From: Flavobacterium haoranii
GTDB lineage: Bacteria > Bacteroidota > Bacteroidia > Flavobacteriales > Flavobacteriaceae
Length of the DNA: 64,000 nucleotides
Reading direction: 5' to 3'
NCBI RefSeq assembly: GCF_009363055.1
Contig: NZ_CP045292.1
Span: 2,232,001-2,296,000 of the forward strand
A program made the position numbers and the translations under genes. The notes under the pieces are model-generated. The model did not search any database, had not been told where the DNA came from, and saw only the letters and a list, made by a program, of their open reading frames with translations. Positions 6,447-59,361 of this stretch are shown one piece after another; position 1 is the stretch's first letter, and each line of letters begins with the position of its first letter.

Positions 6447-7947
6447 ATGAAAAAATTATTATTTAGCTTGTTTATAAGTTTAACACTTGTTTCAACAATT
6501 CACGCTCAAGATGCCTTAGCTAAAATTGAATATGGAAATGCTGATGAAGCTTACCAAAAAGGTGAATATAAAAAGCTTTAGAACATTTAGATAAGATAAA
6601 AAAGCATCTTGGTGGTACAAATGCAACAGTTATGTATCTTGAAATATTAACAAGCTACTATGCTTTGCCTTATTTCTTGGAAGATAATGATGTTAAAAAT
6701 TATTTAGATTATTCAAAATATGATTTAGATAATTTCAATTATTTAACGCAAATAAGAACAATGGCTTATTTAGCTTCACAAGGAAAAACATTTAAACCTT
6801 CTGAAGTTGAAAATAAGACCCCGGTAATTAATTTCTTAACAGAAAGTGGATTAAATGAAGCCTTGACTGTTCAAAAAATAACGAAATTAACTAAAACCTA
6901 CATTTCAAAATTTAGCAAGTCTGCTCCGTTAGAAAAAATAAAAGAGATAAGAGATATTCAAAAAAAATAGATCCTTCAGCAATAGCAATAGAATTAATAA
7001 TAGAAGGATTATATGCCATTGAAAATAAAGAATGGGACAACGGTATTTCTTTAATAAATAAAGCTTGTGAAGCTGGAAATAAATTTGCCGTTATAAAAGC
7101 TCGTATTCTTAAAGCTAAAGATATGATACTAAATCATAGGGACGAAATTGTTCAAAACATCTTAAATAACATGGTTTTGGTAGAAGGAGGAACATTTAAA
7201 ATGGGAAATAATCAATATAAAAATCAAAAAGAGCACAATGTCATCTTAAGTAATTTTAACATCAATAAATATGAAGTCACCAATTTAGAATATTATGCTG
7301 TAGTAGGTGGAGTAGAAGAAGAAGGAATGCATAATTATTTTTTAAAATATTACAACTTTCCTATTGAAATCACTACTAGATCTGTCATAGAAAAATTTAT
7401 AAAAGAACTAAATCAATTAACCAATAGAAATTTCATTTTACCTACTGAAGCACAATGGGAATATGCTGCACGTGGTGGAAATATGACTCAAAATTATCAA
7501 TATTCAGGAAGTAATAATGTTAATGAAGTAGCCTTTTTTGAGAACGAAGAAAAAACTACAAAGCTAGTTGTAGGAGGAAGTAAAAAACCAAATGAACTTG
7601 GCCTGTATGATATGAGTGGTAACATAACGGAAATTTGTCAAGATTTATATGATGAAAAATTTTATAATTCAAGTAACAACGCTAAAGACCCTATATGTAC
7701 TAAAACTAAATTTGTTGAGGTCGTTGAAAGTTCAGTCGAACAAGTTACAAATGTTTTTGGGATGCCAAAATCAAGTACCTATAGTAATATTCATGAACTT
7801 AAACCAGAAGCAAAAACATCAGCGGGTATAGTAGGCCGTTTTGGGGTAAAAAATATAAGTGACAGATCTTTTATTTTTTGCTTATCATCTAAAAGTGCAA
7901 CTGCAAGGGTAGGCTTCCGTTTAGCAGAAAAATTACCTTCAGAATAA
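6447..7947 (+). pseudogene. TPR/SUMF1-domain exported protein, interrupted by two frameshifts
   Basis: Three pieces in three frames make one gene: 6447-6581, about 6575-6969, and about 6968-7947. The first break is in the A run 6570-6574 and the second in 6960-6967. Adding one A to each gives a continuous protein of about 500 residues that matches the next gene along its length. It has a signal peptide (ending IHAQ), the same mature start AQDALAK, a TPR-like helical region, and a SUMF1 (formylglycine-generating-enzyme-like) domain from MVLVEGGTFKMG to GFRLAEK. The active-site cysteine pair of true FGE is not present, so the domain is probably structural or binding, as proposed for GldJ and GldK. 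Both breaks sit in A runs, so assembly error is likely. Confidence 0.75.
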
Positions 7948-7963
7948 TTTTAAAAAAGATTTT

Positions 7964-9528
7964 ATGAAAAGATACTTAACAATTATAATCATTATTATAT
8001 TATTTGCTTCAGAAAGCCATGCTCAAGATGCCTTAGCCAAATTAGAGTATCAAGATGCCGAAACCGCTTATCAAAATGACAATTACAGTAAAGCTCTAGA
8101 ACATTTAGAAGCTACAAAAAAACTGTTAGGGAGTACTAATGCTACTATTATGTATCTAGAAATTTCAGCAAAAGATAAATTATTAAATACAAACAATACT
8201 TCCAGTTATACCCATGAAAGTTTAAAACAACTTTGTAATGATAATAATTTTTCATTAATAACATTTTATTTTGATGTAACCAAGTCTATTTATCCAGCAG
8301 TTGGGGGTATAAATGAAACACAATATGTAGAGTTTATTATAAAAGCTGGAAATCAATCAGGAATGTCAAACATTAATAAAGAAGAATTAATGTATCAGGC
8401 ACTAACAGAAGCAGCAACAGAAGTAAAAACTTCTGCGGATACTCATATAAAAAAAATAATAGAAAAGCATAATCTCAAACGAAGTACCAATAATTCATCA
8501 GAAATTGATTTAATTGAAAAGTTAGTAAGTTTAGACAAGTTGAGTAAAAAATACCTAAAGAATTTTCAAAACACCGCACCATTAGATAAAACAAAGGTAG
8601 TATACGAAATTCAACAAAAATTGCAACCTAGAGTTATAGAATCGGATGCTATTATTCAAGGGTTAAAAGCTATTAAAGCAAAACAATATACAAATGCTAT
8701 TATACTCTTAGAAAAAGCATGTAAAGCTGGAAATGAATTTGGATGTATGAAAAGAGAAGAAGCATACTTATGGGATCAAATTACCAATCATAAAGATGAA
8801 ATTATACAAAACTTAGTAAATAATATGGTATTGGTAGAAGGAGGTACTTTTGTTATGGGTATGGAAAGATATGATAATGATAATAAAACACCTCATAGTG
8901 TTACACTTACCGACTTTTATATTAACAAGTATGAAGTTACGCGTTTAGAATGGATGGCGGTTATGGAAGAAGTAGAAACAGATGGGAATAATAAATGTTA
9001 TGATTGTCCTAAAGTAAGTAGCCGATATGAAATTTTAACATTCATTGATAAATTAAACGAAAAAACAGGTAGAAGCTTTATTTTGCCTACAGAAGCACAA
9101 TGGGAATTTGCTGCAACAGGTGGAAATGAATCGGAAGGTTTTGAATTTGCTGGAAGCAATAATAAAGAAGAAGTATATGTAATAATGTACTTAAATGGAA
9201 AAGGTATAACAAGTGTCGGATCAAAAAAACCAAATGAATTAGGTTTATATGATATGAATGGTAATGTAAATGATATGTGTTTAGATTTTTATGATGGAGA
9301 TTTTTACAAAAAAAGTAAAAACAGCATAAATCCGATTTGCAATCAAATTAAAAATTGGGACAAAAAAAATATGAGTTAGATTCAAAAGGATACATTAAGG
9401 GAGTAGATAAAACTTTATATGGTAAATTTAAATTTTCGATAAGAGGAACTACTAAATCAAAAGTAAGATTAAAAACTGAGGAGGCAATTAAAAGTGTAAT
9501 TGGTTTCCGTTTAGCAGAAAATCAGTAA
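7964..9528 (+). pseudogene. TPR/SUMF1-domain exported protein (paralogue), one frameshift near the end
   Basis: A signal peptide (ending SHAQ) is followed by a helical TPR-like region (about 23-270) and a SUMF1-like domain (about 285 to the end). The frame closes early at 9379 after the A8 run 9362-9369. One more A extends it to 9528 and restores the family's final GFRLAENQ, for about 521 residues. It is a tandem duplicate of the preceding gene, with shared words AQDALAK, NMVLVEGGTF, FILPTEAQWE and KKPNELGLYDM. The FGE catalytic cysteines and the RGGSW-type motif are missing, so sulfatase-activating chemistry is unlikely. A perfect terminator follows, so it closes the 4155-9528 cluster. Confidence 0.78.
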
Positions 9529-9563
9529 AAAACAAAAGCCATCGTTTAGATGGCTTTTGTTTT
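9529..9563. terminator. Bidirectional terminator between convergent genes
   Basis: A perfect 15-bp inverted repeat (9529-9543 with 9549-9563) around the loop GTTTA. A-rich and T-rich ends make it work on either strand. It separates the SUMF1-like gene from the M1 peptidase. Confidence 0.9.
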
Positions 9564-9577
9564 ATGTAGAAATGAAA

Positions 9578-11458
9578 TTATTTCTTCTCCCAAGTATTGT
9601 TGTTTAAATCAACATCAGCCATTAAGCCACTTGGATCAATTACAATCGCTTTAACGCCTTTTTTAGCTATTTCGAAGGTAAATGTAGGATAAGCCCAATC
9701 CCATCCTTTTAAAACCGTTCTTTCAATTGGAAATGGATTTGGTTTTTCCCAACGCATTAACGTGTTTGGAATGTAAAACGATTCTTGCGTGCCATCTTCA
9801 TATACCACAAGTAAGTCTATTGGCATTGGCATTCTACCAATTCTTTCCAAAGTTACTTTTGTTGCATTATTTTCTTCAGAAACATTTTTTACACCATAAT
9901 CAATTGTATTGGTAGTTTGTGTCCAATCTACTAAATACCAATCTAAATTTGCTCCCGATACCTTCTCTGCTGTTCTTTTAATATCATTTGGTGTAGGATG
10001 CGTAAATTTATAATCGTAGTAGTAACGTTTTAAAGTTTTCATTAAATTTTCTACACCAATTACATATCCTAGTTGCGATAAAAAGATTTCACCTTTACTG
10101 TAAGCGCCAATTCCATAAGACATATTATAATCATAACGATCTGCATGAGTAGAAAGTGGTTGTTCTTTTCCGCTTTTTATTAAATAACGGTAACCTTGGT
10201 AAGCTCCTTCAAACGGATTAACTTCTTCACCTTCTTTTTTCTTAGAAGGTAAAACTTGTTCCATTGCTAAATCTGAAATAAATGAAGTAAAACCTTCATC
10301 CATCCATTCGTGTTTACTTTCGTTTGAAGCTAAAATATGTTGGAACCAAGAATGTGCAAATTCATGAGCGGTAACACCCACTAAGCTACCATAACTTCTG
10401 TTTCCAGTAATTAAAGTACACATTGCATATTCCATTCCACCATCGCCACCTTGAACAACAGAATATTGTTTGTATGGATATTGACCAACAGCTTTATTGA
10501 AAAACTCTAATAACTCTATAGTTTTTGGCTGTAATTTTTTCCAGTTTTCAATGTTTTCTTTCTTGTTTTTGTAGAAGAAATGTAATTCTACATTATTTGG
10601 TCCAAGAACCATATCGTGGATGTATTCATTATCTGCTCCCCATGCGAAATCATGAACATTTGGAGCTACAAAATGCCAAGTTAATGTTTTTGCTTTCTTA
10701 GGATATTTAACTTCTACACCATTATCTTGATAACCATGACCAATTTCGTTTTTATTTTGAAGGTATCCTGTTCCACCAATAGTATATTCTTTATCAAGTG
10801 TGATTTTTACATCGAAATTACCCCAAACACCATGAAATTCTCTTCCAATGTAAGGATCGGCATGCCAACCTTCAAAGTCATATTCAGCCATTTTAGGATA
10901 CCATTGCGTCATAGATAAAGCCACACCTTCTTCTGAATTTCTTCCTGAACGACGCACTTGTAGTGGTACTTGTCCGTCAAAATCTAAAACAAAAGTAGCT
11001 TTTTGATGAGGTAAAATAGGTTCGTTTAATTCAACTTCTAAAACAGTACCAACTACTTTAGTTGAAGCAGTTTTTCCATTTTGAGAAAAGTTTGAAATTT
11101 TTAAATAACCAATTTCATCTGGCTTTAATGTACTAATTCTACTTTCGGTTACATCTTCAGTCCCTTTTTTAAAAGATTTTACCATTCTTTTATCTGGGTC
11201 AGAAATAGTTTGTAAACGAATATCCATTGCGCTTCCTGGTTGAAAAGCATTTGGATACAAGTGATAAAAAACTTTTTTCAGTGTATCTGGCGAATGATTT
11301 GTATAAACCAATTCTTGATGTCCTTTATATTGGTAATTTTTAACATTCATATCAACATCCATTTTGTAGTCAACATGTTGTTGCCAATAACCAGCATTTG
11401 GATTATTTTGGCTGAATCCAAAAGCTGAAAGAAGTGAAAATACGATTAATTTCTTCAT
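9578..11458 (-). CDS. M1 family metallopeptidase
   Basis: A 626-residue exported zinc aminopeptidase of the gluzincin M1 family, which removes N-terminal residues from peptides. Residues 1-16 are a signal peptide ending FGFSQ. The M1 signature is complete: GGMEYAM (exopeptidase-type motif), then the zinc site HEFAH near residue 365 and the third ligand Glu in WMDEGF about 20 residues later. The N-terminal third matches the beta-sandwich domain of M1 enzymes. It stands alone between two terminators and probably acts in the periplasm or outside the cell in peptide nutrition. Confidence 0.92.
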   Translation of the reverse strand: MKKLIVFSLLSAFGFSQNNPNAGYWQQHVDYKMDVDMNVKNYQYKGHQELVYTNHSPDTLKKVFYHLYPNAFQPGSAMDIRLQTISDPDKRMVKSFKKGTEDVTESRISTLKPDEIGYLKISNFSQNGKTASTKVVGTVLEVELNEPILPHQKATFVLDFDGQVPLQVRRSGRNSEEGVALSMTQWYPKMAEYDFEGWHADPYIGREFHGVWGNFDVKITLDKEYTIGGTGYLQNKNEIGHGYQDNGVEVKYPKKAKTLTWHFVAPNVHDFAWGADNEYIHDMVLGPNNVELHFFYKNKKENIENWKKLQPKTIELLEFFNKAVGQYPYKQYSVVQGGDGGMEYAMCTLITGNRSYGSLVGVTAHEFAHSWFQHILASNESKHEWMDEGFTSFISDLAMEQVLPSKKKEGEEVNPFEGAYQGYRYLIKSGKEQPLSTHADRYDYNMSYGIGAYSKGEIFLSQLGYVIGVENLMKTLKRYYYDYKFTHPTPNDIKRTAEKVSGANLDWYLVDWTQTTNTIDYGVKNVSEENNATKVTLERIGRMPMPIDLLVVYEDGTQESFYIPNTLMRWEKPNPFPIERTVLKGWDWAYPTFTFEIAKKGVKAIVIDPSGLMADVDLNNNTWEKK

Positions 11459-11486
11459 TTTTTATTGTTGTTTCATCTTAAATAAA

Positions 11487-11596
11487 AAAACCTTCTCAAT
11501 TTAGTTGTCATTTCGAGCGAATTCGAGGAATCTCATCAAACATTTAGTTCAATTAGATTCTGAACTTGGTTCAGAATGACAATTTGAGAAGGTTTT
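11487..11596. terminator. Terminator hairpin carrying a repeat element in its loop
   Basis: The outer arms AAAACCTTCTCAA (11487-11499) and TTGAGAAGGTTTT (11584-11596) are exact reverse complements with A and T tails. A 78-base palindromic repeat (11505-11582) fills the loop. On the minus strand it follows the S8 peptidase gene. Confidence 0.7.
11505..11582. repeat. Dispersed palindromic (REP-like) element, copy 1
   Basis: It is bounded by TTGTCATT and AATGACAA. The left half is TCGAGCGAATTCGAGG plus AATCTCAT; the right half is a hairpin ATTCTGAA/TTCAGAAT. The same arrangement is seen at 16647-16719. Confidence 0.75.
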
Positions 11597-11607
11597 CTAA
11601 ATATAAA

Positions 11608-13197: not shown

Positions 13198-13275
13198 TTA
13201 TAAAGTTTTATGTTTTGTTTAATTTTATTTGACAAATATGAATTTATTTTGTTACAACTTAACTGCTATTTAACA

Positions 13276-14136: not shown

Positions 14137-14228
14137 CAGAATTAAATTTTCTGCAATTTACAAATTTTATAAGGATTTACTATAAGTTCTTTTTATCTTA
14201 CAATAAGTTATAAAAATGTTACTATTTA

Positions 14229-14258
14229 TTGCAATTCGTTTTTTATAATCTATCTTTG
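14229..14258 (+). promoter_or_regulatory. Bacteroidota-type promoter for the suf operon
   Basis: A -33 TTG (14229-14231), 19 bases, then -7 TATCTTTG (14251-14258), a close match to the Bacteroidota consensus. It leaves a 5' leader of about 100 bases before sufA. Confidence 0.75.
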
Positions 14259-14366
14259 CAATTAATTTAGACAAAATCAAAATTAGCTGTGAAATGAGTA
14301 TTAAAATTGTAAATGACAGTTTTATACAAATTGCATAACACCTTAAAAAACAAATAATTTTAGGTT

Positions 14367-14696: not shown

Positions 14697-14743
14697 ATGA
14701 ATTAAAATAATCTAAAAAAGCTAAAGAATCAAAAAAATAGATT

Positions 14744-18919: not shown

Positions 18920-20563
18920 ATTGTTTTATAAACTCAATTTCAGAGATTGAACCATCACAGGATAATAACATTTTATCAATTTCATTTTTTGAATTTCTGG
19001 TGAAATAATACAAGGTTCGGTCATTATTGCCAAATTCATCTTTCTGAACGGTTTCTAGCGCTATATTATCATGATTTTTATATTTTAAATATAATTTTTC
19101 ATCGGTTTCTAAAAACTCATAAACGACATCTAACTCTTCAGAATAATACTTTCCAACAAATTCGTTTACATTAACAGTTTTAGAATCGATAAAGTGAGCT
19201 TTTTTAAAATAGAATGGAGTGCCACCAAATGAGATGACTAAATCGTGATTTTCGTTTTTCGTAAAATCATACTTAACACTTTCACTATTAATTCTGTGGA
19301 ATTTATTTTTTCAAATCCTTCTAAAGCAGTAGGTTTGTTTGCTCTTGCGCCTTTAGATTTTAAAGTGTCATTTTCAAGAAGAATTTCCATTTTCATATCG
19401 CTATTAACCTCTTTGTATTGTCCTACGAAAGATTTTAAATCTTTTGATTTTGCGATATACTTTTTAGATGATTTTTCTTTTATTGCTTTAGTTTTAGGAA
19501 GAAATAAATCTAATATTTCATAGGAAATAGGCGTTGGATTTATGGATTCTAAATTGGTCATAATGATGATACCTAGTTTCTTTTCAGGAATAGTAATCAA
19601 TTGCGATTGACCGCCCCAACTGTATCCACTATGGCTAATGGTTGTAAATCCTTTATAATCGTCAACCATTACGCCACGAGCGTATTTTGCTTTTTCGCCA
19701 GACGGAAGTGTTTCTAAAGTAGTTAAAAAATGACTCAATCCTATAAATTTTGGATTATCACCATTTAGCATATTAATCCACACTGCCATATCTTTTACAG
19801 TTGAACCCATACTTCCTGCGCCATAGCTAGTTTGGATTCTAGGTAATTGAATAAAACCGTCTTTTGTTTTTCGATATCCAACAGCTTTATTTTTAATAAT
19901 GGTGTTGTTCTCTATTCTTACCAAAGTATTATGCATTTCTAAAGGAATAAATAGTTTTTCTTTAGCAAATTCATGTAAATTCATTCCTGAAATACGTTCT
20001 ATAATAATTGATAATAAAGTATAATTAGTATTAGCATAAACTACTTTTTCACCCGGAATATTATTTAGTTTTGCTTGTTTAGCTGCTAATTTTAATACTG
20101 TGGAATTATCATAATACTCTTTATCATAATCAAAACCCGATAAGTACATTAAAGAATGATAGTTTGAAAGTCCGCTTGTATGGTTTAATAAATGTCTAAC
20201 TTTTATATCCTGACTATGTGCTTTAATTTCAGGTAAATATTTTCTAATATCATCATCTAAACTTAATTTATTTTCTTTTATCAACACCCAAGCACAAGCC
20301 GCCGTAAATTGTTTTGCAATTGATGCAAGACTAAAAACTGTAGAATCTGAATTTTTTATATTGTACTCTAATGTAGTGTACCCTATACTTTTAGAGTAGA
20401 TTATTTCACCATTTTTAATTATGCCAATACCTAAACCCGGCGAATTTGGTTGTTCGTATTTTTGTAAAAGGGAATCTATTTCACTTGAAACATTCTGTGC
20501 TTTTATTAATTGTGTAACAAATAAAAATGTAAAAAACGTAATTAAATAAAATGACTTTGACAT
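18918..20563 (-). pseudogene. Class C beta-lactamase-fold serine hydrolase, frameshifted
   Basis: The catalytic domain is intact: signal peptide (about 1-22), nucleophile motif SIAK (81-84), YAN (176-178) and HSG (311-313), as in penicillin-binding-protein/AmpC-like serine hydrolases. Without a frame change the protein stops at 19238 (441 residues, with an odd basic tail). Restoring one base in the T6 run 19306-19311 (plus-strand view) continues it to the stop at 18918, about 548 residues. The recovered tail reads as normal coding sequence and includes NEFVGKYYSEELDVVYEF, so the break is probably an assembly error. It lies downstream of padR and a small membrane gene. Substrate unknown; do not assume antibiotic resistance. 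Confidence 0.8.
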
Positions 20564-20565
20564 AA

Positions 20566-21005
20566 TTATCTGTTTTTTAGGATGGTTTTTTGTTTTGAAA
20601 GTTGGTATTTATTATAAAAAGCAAAAGGAATAGTTCCAAAAATTAAAATACTAAATCCGCATGCTAATAAAACACTTGCATATGGCCATTGATTTAATTT
20701 GAATAACATTCCTAAAGCTAAAAGCATGATGTTAAAAGTGGAAAACAAAAAAAAGGCTCTTTTTCTGGCTAAAATTGTACGGATTAATTTTTTTCGTTAA
20801 CATCTTTTTGCATGTTTTGTAAAGAAGCGTAACCTCCTAAATTTTGAATTGCTTCTTGATACGCTTTTTCAAAATCAGTTCCATTGTAGCATTCTATGTG
20901 TGTACAAATATGATCCATTAAATCTTCTTTTAGCGTAACATCTGTAATTCCATAAAATTTTAGAGTTGTTGCTATATATTCAACATTTTCATCAGTAAGT
21001 ATCAT
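20566..21005 (-). pseudogene. Small HAAS-like membrane protein, frameshifted
   Basis: Two pieces are seen: a 73-residue helical part (20784-21005; KEDLMDHICTHIE, EAIQNLGG) and a 60-residue part with two membrane segments (20566-20748; FNIMLLALGMLF). Adding one base to the run 20788-20794 joins them into one protein of about 146 residues. The N-terminal part resembles the HAAS/DUF1700-type domain often encoded next to PadR regulators. Its start overlaps the padR stop by four bases, and its stop is two bases from the serine hydrolase start, so the three genes are tightly coupled. Function is unknown; a PadR-controlled signalling or membrane role is an inference. Confidence 0.68.
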
Positions 21006-21340
21006 GATTTTATAGCATTAGAATTAAATATTAGCTGGAGTGTACCAATAAAATCATTTAGTTCAGCAGTAATTTCAGAAATTGCAATTTTGCCAGTTGG
21101 CGTAATTTTATAATATTTTCGTACTCGTTTCCCTAAATACATTTTTTCAGTTTCTAAAACACCATCAGCTTCAAGTTTATGAAGAATTGGGTACAAAGCT
21201 CCTTCAGAAATGTCAATTTTACCTTTTGTCATTTCTTTTACTTTTTGAGTAATTTCATACCCATACATTTTATCATTTTCGCTTATCAACTTTAAGATGA
21301 TAGGTAATAATGTTCCTTTTGTTAGTTCTTTATTATACAT
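21002..21340 (-). CDS. PadR-family transcriptional regulator
   Basis: A 112-residue winged-helix repressor of the PadR family (MYGYEITQKV, ISEGALYPILHKLEADGVL, RKYYKITPTGK). It probably controls its own operon, which includes the small membrane protein and the serine hydrolase. I place the start at the ATG at 21340 (MYNKELTKG) rather than five codons upstream, because a -7 box lies inside the longer version. The stop overlaps the next start by four bases. Confidence 0.9.
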   Translation of the reverse strand: MYNKELTKGTLLPIILKLISENDKMYGYEITQKVKEMTKGKIDISEGALYPILHKLEADGVLETEKMYLGKRVRKYYKITPTGKIAISEITAELNDFIGTLQLIFNSNAIKS

Positions 21341-26771: not shown

Positions 26772-27343
26772 TTATTTGGTTTTCTTAACATATTGAGTAA
26801 GAATTACAATATGTTGTCCTTCAACGCGACCTTCAATTTGTTCTGCGTTATCCCAAACTAATTTGATATTGTGAACTGGAGCACCTCTTTTTGCAGTGAA
26901 ATTAGCACCTTTAACGTCTAAATCTTTAATTAAAACTACAGAATCACCGTCAAATAGAATATTTCCGTTGCTATCTTTATGAACAATTTTTCCTTCTTCT
27001 TCTTCGCCTTCACCAGTAGCTTTTGCCCATTCTAACGATTCCTCATCAAGATACATTAAATCTAAAAGATCGTGATTTTTTAAACGAGCTAACATGCGCC
27101 AAGATAGAACTTGAACTGGTAAAAATTCGCTCCACATACTTTCTGATAAACCGCGCCAATCTTGTTCATTCATAGCCTCAGCGTTTTCAATTTGTTCAGC
27201 TAAGTTTTTTGCTAATAAAACAGAATGCTCTAGACTTTCAGAAGTATAAGGAGGAAGTGTGTAAACTACTAAATCGTGTTCTGCACCACTTATTTCACAT
27301 TTTGAATTACTTCTATCTTTTAATTTTTTTCGATTACGCTCAT
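26772..27343 (-). pseudogene. PhnA-domain protein, N-terminal frameshift
   Basis: Without correction only 133 residues from 27173 are open (MNEQDWRGL onward). Adding one base in the run 27324-27330 lets an ATG at 27341-27343 read through, giving about 190 residues that begin MSVIEKKLKDRS and include CEISGAEHDLVVYTLPP. That restores the expected N-terminal part of the family, including one cysteine of its zinc-binding region. The C-terminal PhnA domain (GDSVVLIKDLDVKGAN, KRGAPVHNIKL) is intact. Despite the name, no phosphonate genes are near, and many such proteins have no proven role in phosphonate use. It begins two bases after the stop of 27346-27837. Confidence 0.78.
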
Positions 27344-42918: not shown

Positions 42919-43680
42919 ATGAACAAAATATTAGTTTACATAGCGTTTTTAATTTCCAATTTTATAGTGGCACAAAACGCGGCTCAAATTCTTTTTGAGA
43001 AAGCAAACGAAAATTATAGAAATGGTAAATATGAAGAGGCAATTACTCAATATGAAAGCATTCTTGATGATCAAAAAGTAGCTTCAGCCGATTTATATTA
43101 CAATTTAGGAAGTGCTTATTACAAATTAGGAAAAGTAGCTCCGTCTATTTATAATTTAGAAAAAGCCTTATTGCTTAATCCAGATGATGAAGCGATTGTA
43201 ACCAATTTACATTTTGCTCAAAAATTAGCTATAGATGATATTAAAGTAGTTCCCGAGGTTGGTTTTTCTAAAATCATATACAATTTCACTTCTAATTTAT
43301 CTTATGATCATTGGGCTTGGCTTGCAGTTTTTGCTGCAGTAGCATTTTTGTTGTTTTTTGTGGGTTATTATTTTTCGTATTTAACCATTTTAAAAAGAAT
43401 TTTTTTCGTAGGAATGTTTTTATTGCTAATTGTTTTACTAACCAGTGTGCTTTCAGCTTTTCTTCAAAAAAGATTCGACAATACCATAAAACCTGCAATT
43501 GTTTTTGCTGAAAGTACTTTTGTTAAATCGGAACCAAAAAATAATTCTGAAAATGCATTTGAATTACACGAAGGAACTAAAGTTTATGTAAAAGAAACTT
43601 TAGATAATTGGAAACGTATTCAATTAACTGATAAAACGGAAGGCTGGATTAAAAAAGACGCAATAAAAGAACTTAAATAG
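42919..43680 (+). CDS. batE: TPR and SH3-type protein BatE
   Basis: A 253-residue protein with signal peptide (about 1-18), TPR repeats (about 20-100), two membrane segments near 132-152 and 162-184, and a C-terminal SH3-like domain (about 195-253; KSEPKNNSENAFELHEGTK region and WKRIQLTDKTEGWI). This is the BatE layout. Last gene of the Bat operon. Its end overlaps the decayed MFS gene on the other strand by eight bases. Confidence 0.9.
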   Translation: MNKILVYIAFLISNFIVAQNAAQILFEKANENYRNGKYEEAITQYESILDDQKVASADLYYNLGSAYYKLGKVAPSIYNLEKALLLNPDDEAIVTNLHFAQKLAIDDIKVVPEVGFSKIIYNFTSNLSYDHWAWLAVFAAVAFLLFFVGYYFSYLTILKRIFFVGMFLLLIVLLTSVLSAFLQKRFDNTIKPAIVFAESTFVKSEPKNNSENAFELHEGTKVYVKETLDNWKRIQLTDKTEGWIKKDAIKELK

Positions 43681-44863
43681 CTGTCTGCTTTTTATTCATT
43701 AAGCGAATCACAATTAGTATTCCCACTACAACCATTATTGCACAAAACAAGAACAAGTATTTCATTCCAAATACATTAATTACAGTTCCTTCAAGCGGTC
43801 CTGTTGCTCCAAGCGAAAGATCAATAAAAAGTGCGTAGCAAGCAAGCGCAGAACCTGCATTGGTAGCCGGAGCTAGTTTTACTGCTTCTACTCCTAACGC
43901 TGGGAATACTAATGAAAATCCTAATCCTGCTATTGCAGCACCAATTAATGCCAGACTTTCATTAGGAGCTAAGAACAATAAAAACAAGCCAATTGCTTCA
44001 GTAATCAAGCAAATTAAAGCAACATTTAAACCACCTTTTACATTGATTTGGTTAGAAAATAACCTTCGTCCTAAAATAAATAACGAACTAAACACACTTA
44101 AGCACAAAGCCGCATTATTCCAATTAAAATAGTCGTAGTAAAGTGTAATAAAGTTGGATAAACCTCCAAAACCAAGTCCGGCTAAACCCAAACAAATTCC
44201 AAAAGGTGTAACTAGTTTTAGTACTTTTAGAAAAGGAATTTGTTCAGAGGTTGAGTTCCCATATACAGGTTTTAATGAACTTGTATATACCAATCCTAAT
44301 AAAGCGGTTATAAAAATTGCAATTGCAATATGCTCCATTCCTAAATTTTTACTTAAGATAACTCCAAGAGGAGCGCCAATAGCTAAAGCTCCATAACAAG
44401 CAATTTCGTTATAGGAAATGGCAGTTGCGGTGTGTTCATTTCCAGCAACTAACATCGCCCAATTGATAGGACTAGCGCCAATCATTCCTTCAGCACAACC
44501 AAGTAATTAAACGAGTTATAGCCAAAAGAATAAGACTTATCATTTGAGCTTCTTCAAACTGAAAGGCAACAAATAATAAAATTCCACTTACTAAAAAACT
44601 ACTCATGCTAATCAAAACCGCTAGTTTTGGCCCTTTGGTATCTACCATTTTTCCAGTTAATCCTCTCACTAAAAAAGTAGCGATATATTGTAAACTGATG
44701 ATTATTCCGGCAACTATTTCACTATAGCCTAAATTTTTATGAATAAATATTGGTTAAATAGCTAGTGGTAATCCAATACACAAATACCCAAAAAGGTTAG
44801 CCAAACATAAGTTATGATTTGCATTTTAGATTGATCGAGTCTTAAGGAAATCGTTTTTGGCAT
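43673..44863 (-). pseudogene. MFS transporter, decayed
   Basis: A 12-span major facilitator broken in its first third. From the ATG at 44863, three lesions are seen: a lost base in the run 44790-44794, a TAA stop (44756-44754) in a hydrophobic segment, and a gained base near 44504. Past these the frame is open for 270 residues (44485 to 43673). Putting the frame right recovers expected transporter sequence at each step (FLVRGLTGKMVDTKGP, LLAITRLI then GCAEGMIGASP). The mix of indels and a nonsense codon suggests a real pseudogene. The family recalls YfcJ/YhhS-like efflux proteins; substrate unknown. A -7 box lies upstream. Confidence 0.82.
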
Positions 44864-45219: not shown

Positions 45220-47786
45220 ATGGATACAAGTTTAGAAGTTCAAAAAAAGCAAATTTATACGAATGAAGAAGCGTATCAAGCTTCTTTAGTGTATTTTAAA
45301 GGAGATGATTTGGCCGCTAGAGTTTGGTTAAATAAATATGCGTTAAAAGATTCTGAAGGGAATATTTATGAAAAATCTCCAGAAGATATGCATCGTAGAA
45401 TTGCTTCTGAAATTGCCCGAATCGAAAAACAATATCCAAATCCACTTTCTGAAACAGAAGTGTACGATTTAATTAAAAACTTTACCTACATTATTCCGCA
45501 AGGAAGTCCTATGACAGGAATCGGAAATCCGTATCAAGTGGCTTCTTTGTCTAATTGTTTTGTAATTGGAAACAATGGAGAAAGTGATTCTTATGGTGGA
45601 ATCATGAAAATTGACCAAGAGCAAGTACAATTAATGAAACGCCGCGGTGGAGTGGGACACGATTTGTCTCACATTCGTCCGAAAGGTTCACCAGTTAAAA
45701 ATTCTGCGTTAACATCAACAGGTTTGGTTCCGTTTATGGAGCGTTATTCTAATTCTACTCGCGAAGTTGCGCAAGATGGAAGACGTGGTGCCTTGATGTT
45801 GTCGGTTTCTATCAATCATCCGGATGCAGAAGATTTTATTGATGCCAAATTAGAACAAGGAAAAATTACAGGAGCCAATGTTTCTGTTCGAATTGACGAC
45901 GGCTTCATGCAGGCGGTAAAAAGTGGAGAAGCTTACACTCAAAAGTATCCAACGTTTAGTCCAAGTCCGGTAGTATCTAAAAAAATTGATGCTGTAGATA
46001 TTTGGAAGAAAATTGTGCACAACGCTTGGCAATCGGCTGAACCCGGAATTTTATTTTGGGATACCATTATCCGTGAATCATTACCCGATTGTTATGCCGA
46101 TTTAGGTTACAAAACGATTTCTACCAATCCGTGTGGAGAAATTCCTTTGTGTCCTTACGATTCGTGCCGTTTGTTGGCGATTAATTTGTTTTCGTATGTA
46201 CAAAATCCATTTACAAGCGAAGCGTATTTCGATTTCGATTTGTTCAAAGAACACGTGGGTTATGCGCAACGCATGATGGATGATATTATCGATTTAGAAT
46301 TGGAAAAAGTAGATGCTATTTTAGCTAAAATTGATGAAGATCCGGAAGAAGAAGAAATCAAAAGAATAGAACGTAACCTTTGGTTAGAAATTCGTAAAAA
46401 GCTAAAGAAGGTCGTAGAACCGGAGTAGGAATCACTGCCGAAGGCGATATGTTAGCCGCTTTAGGAATTCGCTACGGAAGCAAAGAAGGAAACGAATTTT
46501 CAGTAAATGTTCATAAAACTTTAGCATTAGCAGCCTATCGTTCGTCAGTAGAAATGGCTAAAGAACGTGGCGCTTTTACCATTTTTGAGGCGCAAAGAGA
46601 AGTAAATAATCCATTCGTACAACGAATTAAAGAAGCTGATGAAGCTTTGTTCCGGGACATGCAAAAGTATGGTCGTAGAAATATTGCTTTATTGACGATT
46701 GCACCAACGGGTACAACTTCGTTAATGGCACAAACAACTTCAGGAATTGAGCCTGTGTTTATGCCGGTCTATAAAAGAAGAAGAAAAGTAAACCCTAACG
46801 ATAAAGATGTTCGCGTAGATTTCGTAGATGAAGTTGGCGATTCTTGGGAAGAATACATCGTGTTCCATCACAAATTCAAACAATGGATGGAAGTAAACGG
46901 AATCGATACTTCTGTAAATTATTCTAACGAAGAATTAGATAAAATCATCGAACAATCGCCTTATTACAAAGCAACGTCAAACGATGTGGATTGGTTGAGC
47001 AAAGTAGAAATGCAAGGCGCTATTCAAAAATGGGTCGATCATTCGATTTCGGTAACGATTAATATCCCAAATGACGCCACAGAAGATTTGGTAAACCAAT
47101 TGTATTTAAAAGCTTGGGAAGTAGGTTGTAAAGGTGTAACCGTTTATCGTGATGGTTCGCGTTCGGGCGTTTTAATTGCAAATGACGAGAAAAAAGAAAA
47201 AGAAGTGGAAGAAATGGATGTAACGTTCAAACGTGTATTTCCAACGAAACGTCCTCAAGTTTTGGAAGCTGATGTGGTTCGTTTTCAAAACAATAAAGAA
47301 AAATGGATTGCCTTTATCGGAAAAATTGATGAGCAACCTTATGAAATTTTCACCGGTTTAGCCGACGACGAAGACGGAATTTTATTACCGCGTTGGGTAA
47401 ACGATGGTTTCATTATCAAAAACAGAGACGAAAAAGGAAATTCTCGTTACGATTTTCAATATGTAAATCCAAGAGGCTACAAAACAACAATTGAAGGTTT
47501 GTCGTACCGATTTAACCCAGAGTTTTGGAATTATGCCAAATTATTTTCTGGAACTTTACGTCACGGATTAGAAATCGACAATATTGTAGAATTAATTAAC
47601 GGATTGCAGTTAGATAACGAATCTATTAATACATGGAAAAACGGAGTTGCACGCGCATTAAAACGTTACATTCCGGATGGTACAACGGCAAGCGGACAAA
47701 AATGTGGCAATTGCGGTGGAACCCATTTAATGTATCAAGAAGGTTGTTTGACTTGCAAAGATTGTGGTTCGTCTAAATGCGGATAA
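45220..47786 (+). pseudogene. nrdJ: Adenosylcobalamin-dependent (class II) ribonucleotide reductase, frameshifted
   Basis: Class II reductase that makes deoxyribonucleotides with an adenosylcobalamin radical. Motifs are GGVGHDLSHIRPKG, NPCGEIPLCPYDSC (active-site region) and PTGTTSLMAQTTSGIEP. A C-terminal zinc-ribbon-like CGNCGG...CKDCGSSKCG is typical of NrdJ. The frame stops at 46428 and resumes at about 46400 in another frame. One A added to the run 46396-46400 gives a continuous 855-residue protein (RKKAKEGRRTGVGITAEG across the join). Loss of this gene would matter, so an assembly error is likely. The start is ATG 45220 (MDTSLEVQ), not the earlier TTG. A perfect terminator follows. Confidence 0.88.
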
Positions 47787-51434: not shown

Positions 51435-51495
51435 ATTAATTTACGTATAGATTTATTGATAAGATTGTCTGCTTTCTAAAATTAAAACATTTTTT

Positions 51496-52473: not shown

Positions 52474-52486
52474 CTTTATTTTTTTG

Positions 52487-52514
52487 CAAAGGTAAGTTCA
52501 GTTTTTTAAACCAA
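52487..52514 (-). promoter_or_regulatory. Promoter for the terC-family gene
   Basis: On the minus strand TTG (52514-52512), 17 bases, then TACCTTTG (52494-52487), 13 bases before the ATG. A near-perfect consensus. Confidence 0.7.
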
Positions 52515-52560
52515 GAGAAAATTTTATAAAAATTTGATTATCAATATTTTATAAAATAAA

Positions 52561-52604
52561 AAAACACTAACCATAATTTTTAAATAATTGATAATTAGTG
52601 TTTT
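52561..52604. terminator. Terminator after gpsA
   Basis: AAAACACTAA (52561-52570) and TTAGTGTTTT (52595-52604) pair, with a weaker A/T inner stem. The T run on the minus strand supports termination of gpsA. Confidence 0.7.
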
Positions 52605-52630
52605 AAGTATATTTTTAAAGGAACGTCTTC

Positions 52631-53626: not shown

Positions 53627-53650
53627 TCTGTTTTTAAATTTTCAGAACTT

Positions 53651-53658
53651 CAAAGGTA
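53651..53658 (-). promoter_or_regulatory. -7 box for gpsA
   Basis: TACCTTTG on the minus strand, 24 bases before the gpsA ATG. No good -33 TTG. Confidence 0.45.
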
Positions 53659-53805
53659 CAGAATTCTAGTGAATTTAAAAATTAACATTAATTTATACTA
53701 TGTCATACAATTTTAGTCGTTGATTCGTCGTTAATATTCTGTTTTATGTTTATAAATACCTTGCTTTATAGTTTTTGGGTTAAGTCTATTAAGTTTTGGT
53801 TGGTT

Positions 53806-53842
53806 AAAAAAACAGGATTATTATCGATAATCCTGTTTTTTG
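53806..53842 (+). terminator. Terminator-like hairpin just before a T9SS gene
   Basis: AACAGGATTAT (53811-53821) pairs exactly with ATAATCCTGTT (53827-53837), with an A run before and a T run after. It ends 27 bases before the ATG of the NHL-repeat gene, with no gene upstream on the plus strand in the window. Confidence 0.7.
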
Positions 53843-53868
53843 TTTTAATTTTGTTTCAAATTAAAGCT

Positions 53869-55422
53869 ATGAAAACCAAATTTTTAGTTTATTTTTTTTC
53901 TTTATTATACATTGGCGTTGTTTTTTCTCAAGCGCCTCAAATCACTTACAATACCCCAAATACATTTTCAATAAACGAATCAATAACTCCATTAGTTCCT
54001 ATTAATACTGGAGGAAATGTGCCAAATGAGCCCATTGTTTCAACTTATGCAGGTACAGGTTCTATAGGTTCAGTAGATGGGTCGCTTTTAACAAGTAGTT
54101 TTAATTTACCTACGATTTCAATATTTGATAATAATCAAGATTTAATTGTAGTCGATAGAAGTAATAATAAAATAAGAAAAATTGCAAACGGACAAGTTAC
54201 TACAATTGCTGGTACTGGTGCTTTGGGTTCAGTTAATGGCGTAGCAACATCTTCTACATTTCGTTATCCTGATGGTGCCGTTGTAGCATCGGATGGTACA
54301 ATCTATATTTCAGATCAAAGTAATCATAAGATTAGAAAGTTTACAACTGATGGAATGGTTTCAAATTTTGTTGGAACAAATACAGCAGGTTATGTAGATG
54401 GAAATGGTACTAATGCTAGGTTTAATTATCCTGCCGCAATGGCGATTGATACTCAAGATAATTTATATGTAGCCGACTGGGGAAATCATTGTATTAGAAA
54501 AATAACTCCAACAGGAGATGTTACCACTTATGCTGGAATTGGTGGTGTTTCTGGAGATTTAGATGGAAATACGACAATTGCTAAATTTAACGGACCTACA
54601 GGTTTATGTTTAGATAATTTTGGAAATGTTTATGTGGCAGATTATAGTAATCATAAAATTAGAAAGATTGATGTACTTGGTAATGTAATCACATTTGTTG
54701 GAACTGGAATAGCAGGAAATGTTGATGGAAATGCTTCGAATGCAACACTTAATTTACCTGCTGTTGTAGCATTTGATGGAATTGAGAATTTTTATGTTAC
54801 CGATAGTGGTAATAGAAAAGTAAGAAAAATTGATGCTCAAGGAAATGTAACCACATTTGCAGGAACTGGTGAAGGTGGTGCAGTAGACGGTGTTGCTTCA
54901 GTTGCTTCTTTCAGAGCTTTAACAGGTATTATAGCTAAAAACGAAACGGAATTTTATGTTACAGATTATAATAATCATAAAATACGGAAAATAAAAATTT
55001 ACCGATATACGATTGCTCCACAATTACCTGCAGGATTAGTTTTTAACGAACAAACTGGTGAAATTTCAGGAACACCAACAGAAGTTTCACCATTAACAGA
55101 TTATACTGTTACAGCTGAAAACGAGAATGGAACAAGTTCTTTTGTATTAAGTATTGAAGTAAACACACTTTCAACAGATTCATTTAATAATTCTATTACT
55201 AAAGTATATCCCAATCCTTTTGAATCAGAATTACTTTTCGAATTTAAAAATGAATTACCAACGGAAGTTTTAATTTTTAATGTTTTAGGACAAGAAGTTT
55301 TACATTTTAAGCCTCAAGAATTGTTACAAAAGATAGATTTCAAAAATAAATTGAATGGCATTTATTTTGCAAAAATAGTTTTTGAATCTAAAACCGAAAT
55401 TTTACAAATTATTAAAAAGTAA
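53869..55422 (+). CDS. NHL-repeat protein with T9SS type A sorting domain
   Basis: A 517-residue secreted protein. Signal peptide: residues 1-20 (ending GVVFSQ). NHL-type beta-propeller repeats fill about 55-385, with the words NLYVADWGNHCIRKI, VYVADYSNHKIRKI and GTGxxGxVDG recurring about six times. A short putative Ig (He_PIG-type) domain lies near 388-440 (LPAGLVFNEQTGEISGTPT). The C-terminal 75 or so residues are a T9SS type A domain (VYPNPFESELL). It probably sits on the cell surface; ligand unknown. I use ATG 53869; the longer open frame from 53746 crosses the hairpin and lacks a signal peptide at its start. Confidence 0.9.
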   Translation: MKTKFLVYFFSLLYIGVVFSQAPQITYNTPNTFSINESITPLVPINTGGNVPNEPIVSTYAGTGSIGSVDGSLLTSSFNLPTISIFDNNQDLIVVDRSNNKIRKIANGQVTTIAGTGALGSVNGVATSSTFRYPDGAVVASDGTIYISDQSNHKIRKFTTDGMVSNFVGTNTAGYVDGNGTNARFNYPAAMAIDTQDNLYVADWGNHCIRKITPTGDVTTYAGIGGVSGDLDGNTTIAKFNGPTGLCLDNFGNVYVADYSNHKIRKIDVLGNVITFVGTGIAGNVDGNASNATLNLPAVVAFDGIENFYVTDSGNRKVRKIDAQGNVTTFAGTGEGGAVDGVASVASFRALTGIIAKNETEFYVTDYNNHKIRKIKIYRYTIAPQLPAGLVFNEQTGEISGTPTEVSPLTDYTVTAENENGTSSFVLSIEVNTLSTDSFNNSITKVYPNPFESELLFEFKNELPTEVLIFNVLGQEVLHFKPQELLQKIDFKNKLNGIYFAKIVFESKTEILQIIKK

Positions 55423-55426
55423 AACT

Positions 55427-55513
55427 CGTCAGTTCGAGTGAAGTCGAGAACACGAGAAAAATTATTCTCGATATAAATTATTCTTCTAGAATTCACTCGA
55501 ATTGACGTTTTTT
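55427..55513. repeat. Dispersed palindromic element, copy 6 (inverted pair)
   Basis: CGTCAGTTCGAGTGAA (55427-55442) and TTCACTCGAATTGACG (55492-55507) pair with one mismatch. Inside is a hairpin CGAGAA/TTCTCG, and a T run follows. It may also serve as the terminator between the two convergent genes. Confidence 0.75.
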
Positions 55514-55524
55514 GATAAAAGAAA

Positions 55525-56685
55525 TTAATAGCTCATTTCTACAATTTCTTTTACTTTATCTAAAGTTACCAATTGCTTTTCGCCCAAACCTTTCCAACCT
55601 CTTTCTTCAAATCGATTAACAATAAAAGAAGCTGTTTCTTGATAGTTTTCTGTGTTTTCTGATAACTTGGTTTTCATACCAACGCTTTGAAAAAATTCAG
55701 TGGTTTTTTCAATTGCTTTTTGTGCAATTTTTTCATCAGTTCCAGTTAAATTCCAAACGCGTTTTCCGTATTGTACTAATTTTTCCTTTTTAGAATCAAA
55801 CATTACTTTGTATAAATTCGGACCAATAATTGCCAATGTTCGCGCATGATCGATTTCATATAAAGCGGTTAGTTCGTGACCAATCATATGCGTTGCCCAA
55901 TCGGTTGGAACACCTTTATTAAGTAAGCCATTTAACGCCATAGTTGCACACCAAACAAAGTTGGAGGCCAATCTATAATCGGTTGGATTTTCAATTACTT
56001 TCGGACCAATTTCTACCAAAGTTTGTAAAATGCCTTCTGCAATTCTGTCTTGAAGTAAAGCATCATGATTATAGGTTAAATATTGCTCCATTACATGTGT
56101 AAAAGCATCTACTACGCCATTTTGCAATTGTCTTTTCGGTAATGATTCAATTACTGTTGGATCTACAATAGAGAAAACAGGAAATAAAGCACTTCCGCCT
56201 AAAGTCAATTTTTCTTGTGTTGCTTCAATAGTCACAACAGCACCTGAATTCATTTCAGAACCTGTAGCGGGTAATGTTAAAACCGTTCCAAAAGGCACCA
56301 CTTTTGAAGTGTCTTTAAATAAAATGCGTTTGTGTAAAATATCGGCTTCGTTGCCTTCAAAATGAACCGTTGCCGAAATAAATTTGGTTCCATCAATAAC
56401 ACTTCCACCGCCAACAGCTAAAATGAAATCAATTTTTTCTTTGCGAATGATTTCAATCGCTTTCATTAGCGTTTCAAAACGCGGATTCGGTTCAATTCCA
56501 CCAAATTCAATAATTTCAACACCAGAAAGTGCAGCTTTAACTTGCTCGTAAACACCATTTTTAAAAATACTTCCACCACCATAGGTTAAAAGTATTTTTT
56601 TAGACGTTACTAAATCAGAAAGTTTTGCGATTTGTCCTTTTCCAAAGACATAGTTTACAGGATTGTATAATTCAAAATTGTTCAT
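55525..56685 (-). CDS. Iron-containing alcohol dehydrogenase (YqhD-like)
   Basis: A 386-residue NADPH-type oxidoreductase of the group III alcohol dehydrogenase family. Cofactor motif GGGSVIDGTKFIS near residue 94; metal region includes VDAFTHVMEQYLT near 194 and THMIGHELTALYEIDHA near 264-280. The start LYNPVNYVFGKGQI is typical of YqhD/butanol dehydrogenase-like enzymes, which reduce reactive aldehydes. The exact substrate is not set by the sequence. It is followed by a repeat copy upstream (56690-56723) that overlaps its promoter region. Confidence 0.92.
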   Translation of the reverse strand: MNNFELYNPVNYVFGKGQIAKLSDLVTSKKILLTYGGGSIFKNGVYEQVKAALSGVEIIEFGGIEPNPRFETLMKAIEIIRKEKIDFILAVGGGSVIDGTKFISATVHFEGNEADILHKRILFKDTSKVVPFGTVLTLPATGSEMNSGAVVTIEATQEKLTLGGSALFPVFSIVDPTVIESLPKRQLQNGVVDAFTHVMEQYLTYNHDALLQDRIAEGILQTLVEIGPKVIENPTDYRLASNFVWCATMALNGLLNKGVPTDWATHMIGHELTALYEIDHARTLAIIGPNLYKVMFDSKKEKLVQYGKRVWNLTGTDEKIAQKAIEKTTEFFQSVGMKTKLSENTENYQETASFIVNRFEERGWKGLGEKQLVTLDKVKEIVEMSY

Positions 56686-56689
56686 AACA

Positions 56690-56723
56690 TTGTCATGCTG
56701 AATTTAGTTCAGCATCTTGTCAA
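56690..56723. repeat. Dispersed palindromic element, copy 7
   Basis: TTGTC, then ATGCTGAA-TTTAG-TTCAGCAT, then CTTGTCAA. It sits directly before the yqhD-like start on the minus strand and overlaps a -7 box candidate TAACTTTG (56728-56721). Confidence 0.65.
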
Positions 56724-56762
56724 AGTTACAAAAAGCGATTGGGAACAGATTGTAAAGGAATG

Positions 56763-57242
56763 TTAATAGATAAGATTTCTTTTAGTTAATTCTTCTTTCC
56801 AGAAAGAAACAATTTTGTCAGCCAAGTTTATTATTTCAATTGAATTTCCAAACTCAGATACAAACTCTTCTTCTAGATAAATAAGTATGTCATTTTCAAA
56901 ATATTCTTCAGAACAATAATCGTTATCTGCATATCCGGTATCTTCAATTTCTTTTACAGAATTATTTTTATTATTCTTCTTTGGTTCGAAATGTTTTGCT
57001 CCATTGCAAATATGATAATTTATTCTAACCAAAGAACTTTCTTCAAATAATTTTCTTTCTGAACATCCTTTGGAAGTTTTACCTTCAAAAACCCAATCAA
57101 CTAAATGGTATGATGTTACAAAAAAATTAAAAGCTAAGTATACATTTAGTGGGTTTTGTTTCAAAAGATTATAATCAAATAAAACTTTGTTCCAATAATC
57201 AGAAACTGTTTTTAATGATATAAAGCCTTTTCCGTTTTCCAT
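56763..57242 (-). CDS. Hypothetical protein (159 aa)
   Basis: No family recognised. Residues 1-60 are mixed aromatic/hydrophobic (SDYWNKVLFDYNLLKQNP, FVTSYHLVDWVFEG). The middle is basic and Asn-rich (PKKNNKNN), followed by an acidic stretch (DNDYCSEEYFENDILIYLEEEF). No signal peptide. It lies three bases after nadD on the same strand, so it may be read with it, but its composition suggests a laterally acquired or poorly conserved gene. Confidence 0.6.
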   Translation of the reverse strand: MENGKGFISLKTVSDYWNKVLFDYNLLKQNPLNVYLAFNFFVTSYHLVDWVFEGKTSKGCSERKLFEESSLVRINYHICNGAKHFEPKKNNKNNSVKEIEDTGYADNDYCSEEYFENDILIYLEEEFVSEFGNSIEIINLADKIVSFWKEELTKRNLIY

Positions 57243-57245
57243 TAA

Positions 57246-57827
57246 TTACTTTTTATAAAACAAATTATGTTCTACATATTCCCAAACTTTTGAAGACAGC
57301 ATAGGTGTAATATTTTTTCCTTCTTTAATACTGTTTCGAATAAAGGTTGATGATAATTCAACCACAGGTGCACCAATACGATGTATTTTAGGATGATTTA
57401 CAAATTGTTCGTCCATTTCTCCAGAGTTTAATCTTGGATACACATAAATATGATGATTTTGAAGAATAACTTCATAGTTTTTCCATTTATGAAGCGAATT
57501 CAAATTGTCTTCACCCATAATTAATGAAAATTCATGAGTTGGAAATTTTTCTTGTAAATGCGCTAATGTATTTACCGTATAATTGGGTTGCGGTAACTTA
57601 AATTCAATATCGGAAGGTTGAATTTTAGGATAATCTTCCGTCGCCAAATGTACCATGTGTAAACGATGGTAATCATCAAGCAACGTATTTTTCTTTTTAT
57701 GTGGATTATGCGGCGTAACGACCATCCAAATTTGGTCTAAATCAGAATGCTCTGCCATATGATTGGCAATAATTAAATGACCAATGTGAATAGGGTTAAA
57801 TGTTCCGAAGTATAAACCAACCTTCAT
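57246..57827 (-). CDS. nadD: Nicotinate-nucleotide adenylyltransferase
   Basis: A 193-residue enzyme that makes deamido-NAD from nicotinate mononucleotide and ATP, late in NAD synthesis. The nucleotidyltransferase motif is GTFNPIHIGHL (residues 8-18, with HIGH) and the ATP motif is SSTFIRNSI near 164. Length is normal. It lies nine bases after gmk, so gmk-nadD are co-transcribed. Confidence 0.95.
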   Translation of the reverse strand: MKVGLYFGTFNPIHIGHLIIANHMAEHSDLDQIWMVVTPHNPHKKKNTLLDDYHRLHMVHLATEDYPKIQPSDIEFKLPQPNYTVNTLAHLQEKFPTHEFSLIMGEDNLNSLHKWKNYEVILQNHHIYVYPRLNSGEMDEQFVNHPKIHRIGAPVVELSSTFIRNSIKEGKNITPMLSSKVWEYVEHNLFYKK

Positions 57828-57836
57828 TTTATAAAA

Positions 57837-58409
57837 CTATTTCGAAATAAAGTCTTTAACTAATTGATAAGCCTCTTCTTTAGCTGTATCTAAATCATAA
57901 TTTTTTATGATAGTATCAAATTGCGGTGCAGTTGCTAATTCTACGTGAGCTTTTGCAATGCGCATATTAATTTTATCATCACTTTCTGTTGAACGTTCTT
58001 TTAAACGACGTTTTAACTCGTCTACACTAGGTGGTTTTACAAAAACAGCTAAAGTTTCTTCTGGAAATTTATGTTTGATTCGCAATCCTCCTGCTACATC
58101 AATATCAAAAATAACATGTTTTCCTAAAGCCCAAATTCTTTCCACTTCTACTTTTAACGTGCCGTAGAAATTATCAGTATACACTTCTTCCCATTCTACA
58201 AAATCTTCAGCTTTTATGTGATTTTTAAATTCTTGCCAAGAAATAAAATAATAATCTTTACCATTAATTTCTTCACCTCTTGGTTGGCGAGTAGTACAAG
58301 AAATTGAAAACTCTAAGTTTAAATCTTCTTTTCCTAATAAATGTCGAACTATAGTTGTTTTTCCTGAACCAGAAGGTGCTGAAAATACTATTAACTTTCC
58401 TTTAGTCAT
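57837..58409 (-). CDS. gmk: Guanylate kinase
   Basis: A 190-residue enzyme that phosphorylates GMP to GDP. P-loop APSGSGKTT (11-19), the GMP-binding SCTTRQPRGEE near 38-48 and the RLKERSTES lid region are clear. It is downstream of yicC with a repeat-rich 92-base gap, and nadD follows after nine bases. The yicC-gmk-nadD order is common in Bacteroidota. Confidence 0.96.
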   Translation of the reverse strand: MTKGKLIVFSAPSGSGKTTIVRHLLGKEDLNLEFSISCTTRQPRGEEINGKDYYFISWQEFKNHIKAEDFVEWEEVYTDNFYGTLKVEVERIWALGKHVIFDIDVAGGLRIKHKFPEETLAVFVKPPSVDELKRRLKERSTESDDKINMRIAKAHVELATAPQFDTIIKNYDLDTAKEEAYQLVKDFISK

Positions 58410-58415
58410 TTTTAT

Positions 58416-58500
58416 AAGCTTTAAGCTTTAAGCAATTTGCTCTAAGCTTTTGTTTTTAGTTGTGTCTTTTGCCTAAAGCCTATTGCTTATGGCGTATTGC
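58416..58500. repeat. Low-complexity repeat between gmk and yicC
   Basis: It has three near copies of AAGCTTT (TAAGCTTTAAGCTTTAAGC) and then GCTCTAAGC and CCTAAAGCCTATTGC. No gene is seen. A less clear relative (TTATGAGTTTTAAGTTATGAG) lies upstream of yicC near 59400. Confidence 0.5.
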
Positions 58501-58501
58501 A

Positions 58502-59361
58502 TTATAGAACATTCAAAACCTGTTCTTTAATTTTTTCTAATTCGTCTTTCATCATTACCACTAATTTTTGCATTTCGGCATGGTTCGATTTAGAACCCAT
58601 AGTGTTAATTTCGCGACCAATTTCTTGCGTGATAAAACCTAATTTTCGACCATTTGCTTCTTTTCCATCCATAGTCTGCAAAAAGTAGTCCAAATGGTTT
58701 CCTAAACGAACTTTTTCTTCTGTAATATCTAATTTTTCAAGATAATAAATCAATTCTTGTTCAAAACGGTTTTCATCAACATTTACTTTTAGCTCGTCAA
58801 TTGTATTCTGTAAGCGTTCTTTAATAGCGTTTATTCTTTCAGGAGCCAAAGCAACTGCTTCATTCATATACTTACGAATGATTTCAATGCGAAAACGGAA
58901 TTCTTTATCTAAAGATAAACCTTCGTCTTTTCTAAAAGTTGAAATGTTAGTCAAAGCTTCTTGAACTAAACTTTTAATTTCTTTAAGTTCATCCTCATTA
59001 ATTTCTTCACGTTCAGTTTTTAATGCATCGGGCATGCGAACCGCCATTTTCATTAATTCCGTTTCGTCTGCATTAGGAAGAATATCTCTCATTTGAGCTA
59101 TATAACCTTTTACAATAGGAGCATTTACTTTTGCCGTAGTTTCTTCACCTGTAATTTCAACAAACAAAGAAAAATCAACTTTTCCACGCTCTAATTCTTG
59201 CGAAATAGTATTACGTAAACTCAACTCCATTTCTCTAAATGCAGAAGGCATTCTTACATTTAAATCGAGTCCTTTACTATTTAAAGATTTTATTTCAACG
59301 GTAATTTTTTTGTTGGCAATTGCTTAGAAGCTTTACCAAAACCTGTCATCGATATAATCAT
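58502..59361 (-). pseudogene. yicC: YicC family endoribonuclease-like protein, N-terminal frameshift
   Basis: Uncorrected, only 249 residues from 59251 are open. Adding one base in the run 59305-59311 lets ATG 59361 read through: MIISMTGFGKA and ITVEIKSLNSKGLDL, exactly the family's N-terminus, for about 286 residues. The rest is intact (RGKVDFSLFVE, GSKSNHAEMQKLVVMMKDELEKIKEQ in two words, normal C-terminus). YicC proteins act on RNA in some bacteria. The restored start is supported by a -7 box TATCTTTG (59392-59385, minus strand). The single homopolymer change points to an assembly error. Confidence 0.85.

Follow-up and report, generated by a model that had tools for sequence, protein, structure and literature searches.

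Programmed −1 ribosomal frameshifting takes place at a slippery heptamer, X XXY YYZ, read in the zero frame. RNA polymerase can also slip on homopolymers, and in E. coli and Buchnera the insertions made in runs during transcription are confined, in the account given for these two organisms (PMC5574713), exclusively to A or T runs. A technical source is familiar as well, in that homopolymer indels are known from nanopore consensus sequences, as one description of them has it (PMC9262707). Here we consider nine single-base frame breaks in a 64,000-base window, the whole stretch of DNA analysed (G000:C1:2232001-2296000), which belongs to a one-contig bacterial assembly of 2,871,082 bases (G000). 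On the basis of sequence comparison, we put at about 95% the probability that eight of the nine window breaks, together with some 200 more over the genome, are consensus errors in which a run is one base too short, the genes of the living organism being intact. The ninth site, at 44790, belongs to a genuine MFS pseudogene and is set aside from this claim.

The locus resembles each of these systems in part. With long-read consensus indels, as far as they are described in that source (PMC9262707), it shares errors in runs, frameshifted gene calls, a contiguous genome and a good completeness score. Polymerase slippage, in the account for E. coli and Buchnera (PMC5574713), likewise concerns single bases in homopolymers and becomes more frequent as runs lengthen, but here G runs and rRNA are affected and the DNA sequence itself is short. 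Programmed frameshifting agrees in direction and, at five of the nine sites, in the presence of an in-frame A heptamer; it disagrees in that four of the nine lack one, that the tested sites are intact in relatives and that rRNA is affected.

Genome and reference relatives

The assembly has an estimated completeness of 99.85%, an estimated contamination of 2.49 and a GC content of 31%. Its best protein matches would place it in the genus Flavobacterium: the C-terminal piece of the ribonucleotide reductase NrdJ has as its best named match the F. haoranii metagenome-assembled genome (MAG) SZUA-388 (95%), and YicC best matches an F. okayamense entry of 286 amino acids (94%). F. haoranii is named as the closest relative in the species description of F. 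okayamense (PMC10542280), whose genome AP024749 combines MiSeq and GridION data. We used as the main reference the F. haoranii MAG G061, which has about 80% DNA identity to G000. A nearer relative, G135, gives long matches with 87-93% DNA identity, and its YicC (95% identity) occupies an open frame of 307 amino acids. To detect frame breaks, we left the genes unmended and aligned intact proteins of relatives to the DNA as it stands, using an aligner with a score for such breaks. Homologue-based tests of single sites relied on those homologues that aligned out of 120 listed per gene.

Frame breaks in the window

The nine window sites are as follows.

6570..6574, plus strand: five A, interrupting tandem copy 1 (about 6447-7947), which encodes a secreted protein with an FGE-sulfatase domain
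6960..6967, plus strand: eight A, the second interruption of tandem copy 1
9362..9369, plus strand: eight A; weakly supported break towards the end of tandem copy 2 (7964 to about 9528)
19306..19311, minus strand: run of 6, A in the gene sense; interrupts a serine hydrolase gene (PF00144, 18921-20563)
20788..20794, minus strand: run of 7, A in the gene sense; small protein in two pieces (20566-20796 and 20784-21017)
27324..27330, minus strand: run of 7, A in the gene sense; a PhnA-domain protein (26772 to about 27343) loses its frame after six codons
44790..44794, minus strand: run of 5, T in the gene sense; one of three lesions in an MFS pseudogene (about 43676-44857)
46396..46400, plus strand: five A, interrupting the class II ribonucleotide reductase NrdJ (45220-47786)
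59305..59311, minus strand: run of 7, A in the gene sense; break in yicC (58502-59361)

The first-pass annotation had described these as losses of one base each in eight otherwise good genes. All nine runs are present with the positions and lengths it gave them, and a deficit of one base was borne out at eight of the nine by intact relatives or a paralogue, the evidence being weak at 9362. It was correct in assigning the MFS site to a pseudogene, but the good genes number seven, with eight sites, because 6570 and 6960 share one gene. The comparison with related genomes that it had proposed found relatives unbroken at the tested sites (NrdJ, YicC, the serine hydrolase, the 20788 gene and 27324).

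The alignment of NrdJ to the G061 protein spans 855 residues with 94% identity and has just one break, a missing base at 46403. The N-terminal and C-terminal pieces of NrdJ occur in one open frame in 79 of 80 named loci, and the 80th (L068, 3,185 bases) has the C-terminal piece only. YicC was one base short at 59303 both against G061 and against 8 of 8 aligned homologues, and the serine hydrolase break at 19308-19311 was seen with all 16 of its aligned homologues. The gene at 20788, downstream of a PadR-family regulator gene, forms one open frame of 146-162 amino acids in each of the 15 relatives that matched in a search of 398 genomes that included G000, compared with 77 amino acids here. At 27324 the G061 protein begins MSIIEKKLKDRS and is unbroken; the window reads MSVIEKN-stop and then continues in another frame inside that stretch. 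This break went unflagged in the automatic G061 scan, in which the alignment began at residue 6.

A DNA search with positions 6400-9600 in 398 genomes of the genus returned, outside the own genome, only short partial matches among the matches listed, and the tandem paralogue was therefore taken as the comparison. With the paralogue (7964-9376) aligned to copy 1, one-base-short breaks appeared at 6571 and 6963 under all three penalties. The 9362 break appears only in low-penalty alignments, and its shifted frame carries a common GFRLAE tail (E 0.018). In Pfam searches of seven separate gene pieces, clear matches were limited to the FGE (PF03781, downstream piece of copy 1), PhnA (PF03831, downstream piece) and MFS pieces.

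Genome-wide count and direction

The first-pass annotation had called for a count of homopolymer frame breaks over the whole genome, and the count made here shows a defect that is spread over the genome with one direction dominant. The scan covered 1,444,000 bases of G000 (window included), about half of the genome, against 1,284,720 bases of G061. From 570 aligned open reading frames (ORFs) of G061, we retained 395 at a coverage of at least 60% and an identity of at least 40%, and counted a break as internal if it lay at least 15 residues away from the alignment ends. The retained genes contained 32 one-base-short, 2 one-base-long, 2 two-short and 3 two-long internal breaks, in 33 genes. Short breaks thus made up 32 of 34 single-base breaks (binomial p 7e-8). 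One site was counted twice via two G061 paralogues, which leaves 31 distinct one-base-short sites. Nineteen stop codons also fell inside alignments of the retained genes.

Raising the identity threshold left the one-base losses increasingly alone. A threshold of 75% identity (234 genes) left 19 one-base-short breaks, 2 two-short breaks and 7 internal stops (6 recorded as stops and 1 as an in-gap stop). At 85% or more (128 genes) there were 12 one-base-short breaks, no one-base-long break and no other lesion, not even stops. The 175 rejected rows held 3 one-base-short breaks, 1 two-long break and 3 stops. The reverse scan, in which 414 of 572 were retained, yielded 7 internal breaks, 1 of them one-base-short. 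Three of its breaks reach 85% identity or higher, and all of these sit in ORFs where pyrF, ccoN and nrdJ are broken; these ORFs are therefore fragments of genes already counted. Extrapolated from 31 sites per 377,076 aligned coding bases, roughly 200 coding breaks would be expected genome-wide; with its eight or nine, the window is somewhat above this average.

Run context

For each break we located its interval and took the longest run touching it. Runs of at least 5 were touched by 22 of 31 sites, against an expectation of 5.6 for random positions within the genes concerned, and runs of at least 4 by 27 of 31, compared with 12.2 expected. Breaks per 1000 A/T runs of observed lengths 3 to 8 numbered 0.13, 0.70, 3.98, 7.00, 7.52 and 21.7, the values for lengths 7 and 8 being based on 2 and 1 sites, respectively. 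The earlier statement that all losses fall in A/T runs describes the nine window sites well but does not extend to the rest of the genome, where G runs are affected: three sites were assigned to G, two of them runs of 3 and 5 inside ccoN. Affected runs are mostly A/T because the genome is 31% GC. Among affected A/T runs of at least 5, A in the gene sense accounted for 15 of 21, against a background of 0.65 (p 0.65). This lack of enrichment implies that the losses follow the DNA rather than the sense of the transcript.

Conserved genes and 23S rRNA

In an NCBIfam search with the G061 proteins for 20 affected genes, 16 matched and 4 were without a match. Those above the curated cut-off include orotidine-5'-phosphate decarboxylase (PyrF, two breaks), MenA, the cbb3 oxidase subunit I/II (CcoN, two breaks), UvrC, RecO, DNA polymerase IV and an RND permease; a RecB-like helicase is also broken, with a match below the cut-off. 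Some of these conserved genes are essential.

Losses extend to DNA that is not translated. Comparing two rRNA operons of G000 revealed single-base differences in G and C runs. We then probed the 23S gene with GGCTGATCT, a C run of three to five letters and AAGAGCTC, a stretch that we take to be near the peptidyl-transferase centre. Of 61 genomes searched, 32 matched. The run has five C in 64 of 65 copies from the 31 other genomes but in only one of three copies in G000, the other two having four. Because rRNA is not translated, recoding is excluded for these losses. The two operons (G000:C1, 395514-398384 and 622012-624884) differ in leader, spacer and trailing sequence as well.

The MFS pseudogene

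Two further lesions accompany the run at 44790.

44754..44756, minus strand: stop codon within the frame of the pseudogene (alignment position 44754), seen with 21 of 23 aligned homologues
44501..44504, minus strand: one-base gain in the MFS pseudogene, seen with 22 of 23 aligned homologues

The one-base-short break at 44790 was itself seen with 19 of 23 aligned homologues, the other four beginning downstream of the lesion; homologues without the stop or gain signal are, similarly, shorter ones that begin downstream of the lesion in question. Since a stop and a one-base gain accompany the loss, the gene is, judging by these alignments, a real pseudogene unless three separate errors coincided in it. 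It is the only window gene with several kinds of lesion. Three near homologues (P0241-P0243, 86-94% identical) also start inside the gene, and their truncated starts may reflect shared decay or contig ends.

Other observations in the window

The class II reductase (45220-47786, plus strand) is patchy in the genus, with a strong match to its C-terminal piece in 4 of 61 genomes, one of them G000. Another region of G000 gives a second, class I-like reductase match, and the state of NrdJ alone therefore tells little about viability. Positions 6447-9528 (plus strand) hold two tandem paralogues, secreted and with an FGE-sulfatase domain, without a close copy among the genus matches listed. A large protein at 297-4127 (plus strand) has a T9SS (type IX secretion system) sorting signal, and the GloVer tandem repeat domain matches it 14 times. 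Neither the Rfam scan nor the tRNA scan gave a match in the window.

Discussion

Homopolymer error in a poorly polished assembly, the explanation favoured in the first-pass annotation, is backed by the direction of the breaks, their location in runs, the dependence on run length, the conserved genes hit and the 23S losses. Losses are concentrated in runs and rise with run length, and they are indifferent to gene function and coding status, striking unrelated genes and 23S rRNA alike. The assembly would then report runs of identical bases one base short, mainly A/T and at times G or C, and reads of the sample would show the longer runs. The platform was probably a long-read one without short-read polishing; older nanopore chemistry would be a guess.

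Several observations weigh against this explanation. Four of the 31 sites touch no run of 4, and non-coding A/T runs of at least 8 are not depleted relative to G061 (1187.5 versus 917.1 per megabase), in a test that is blunt at the observed rates. The main reference is one MAG at about 80% DNA identity, and the automatic test reached two of the nine window sites. A short 23S copy is not unique to G000, as one of seven copies in G036 is also short; that C run, at G036:C1:2536770-2536790 in a single-contig genome of the same genus, may be the same kind of error. The verdict itself draws on assembled sequence and homologue comparison.

Real mutation, through gene decay or in a mutator strain, would account for the MFS gene with its three lesions of three kinds and for the 19 stops inside the alignments, of which 7 are internal in the subset with at least 75% identity. 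The broken repair genes (uvrC, recO, a recB-like gene and one for DNA polymerase IV) also speak for it. With decay, lesions of other kinds would be expected, and the most conserved subset, with its 12 breaks at 85% identity or more, shows none, which disfavours it, as does the estimated completeness. A mutator would be expected to have lost mismatch repair genes, yet the frames of mutS (876 amino acids) and mutL (623 amino acids) are open and without stops, and we rejected this candidate. Moreover, from general biology, a strain that had lost pyrF, menA, ccoN and two 23S copies together could hardly be expected to live. Overall, we consider real mutation very improbable.

Slimmer still is the chance that the DNA truly carries the short runs and that the cell recovers the reading frames, either through −1 ribosomal frameshifting or because RNA polymerase slips on A/T tracts. 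The direction suits both, as repeating one base would restore the frame, and an A AAA AAN heptamer stands in the zero frame, by eye, at 6960, 9362, 20788, 27324 and 59305. An in-frame A or T heptamer is missing at 6570, 19306, 44790 and 46396, and the heptamer is therefore not a rule for the set. A programmed break should also be conserved in relatives, and it is not: NrdJ is unbroken in all but the incomplete locus, and the 20788 gene in every matching relative. Rescue by slippage should involve long A/T runs only, whereas window runs are as short as 5 and G runs are hit elsewhere, unlike in E. coli and Buchnera as described in that account (PMC5574713). The rRNA losses defeat both mechanisms, and A runs in the gene sense are not over-represented. 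On these grounds natural recoding and slippage were rejected. We give equally little credence to a mixture in which a few of the five heptamer-bearing breaks are real and bridged by frameshifting among many assembly errors.

If the breaks are consensus errors, as we favour, annotation of G000 would show about 200 false frame breaks despite a completeness of 99.85%. Claims of recoding or gene loss in this organism would be premature before reads are consulted.

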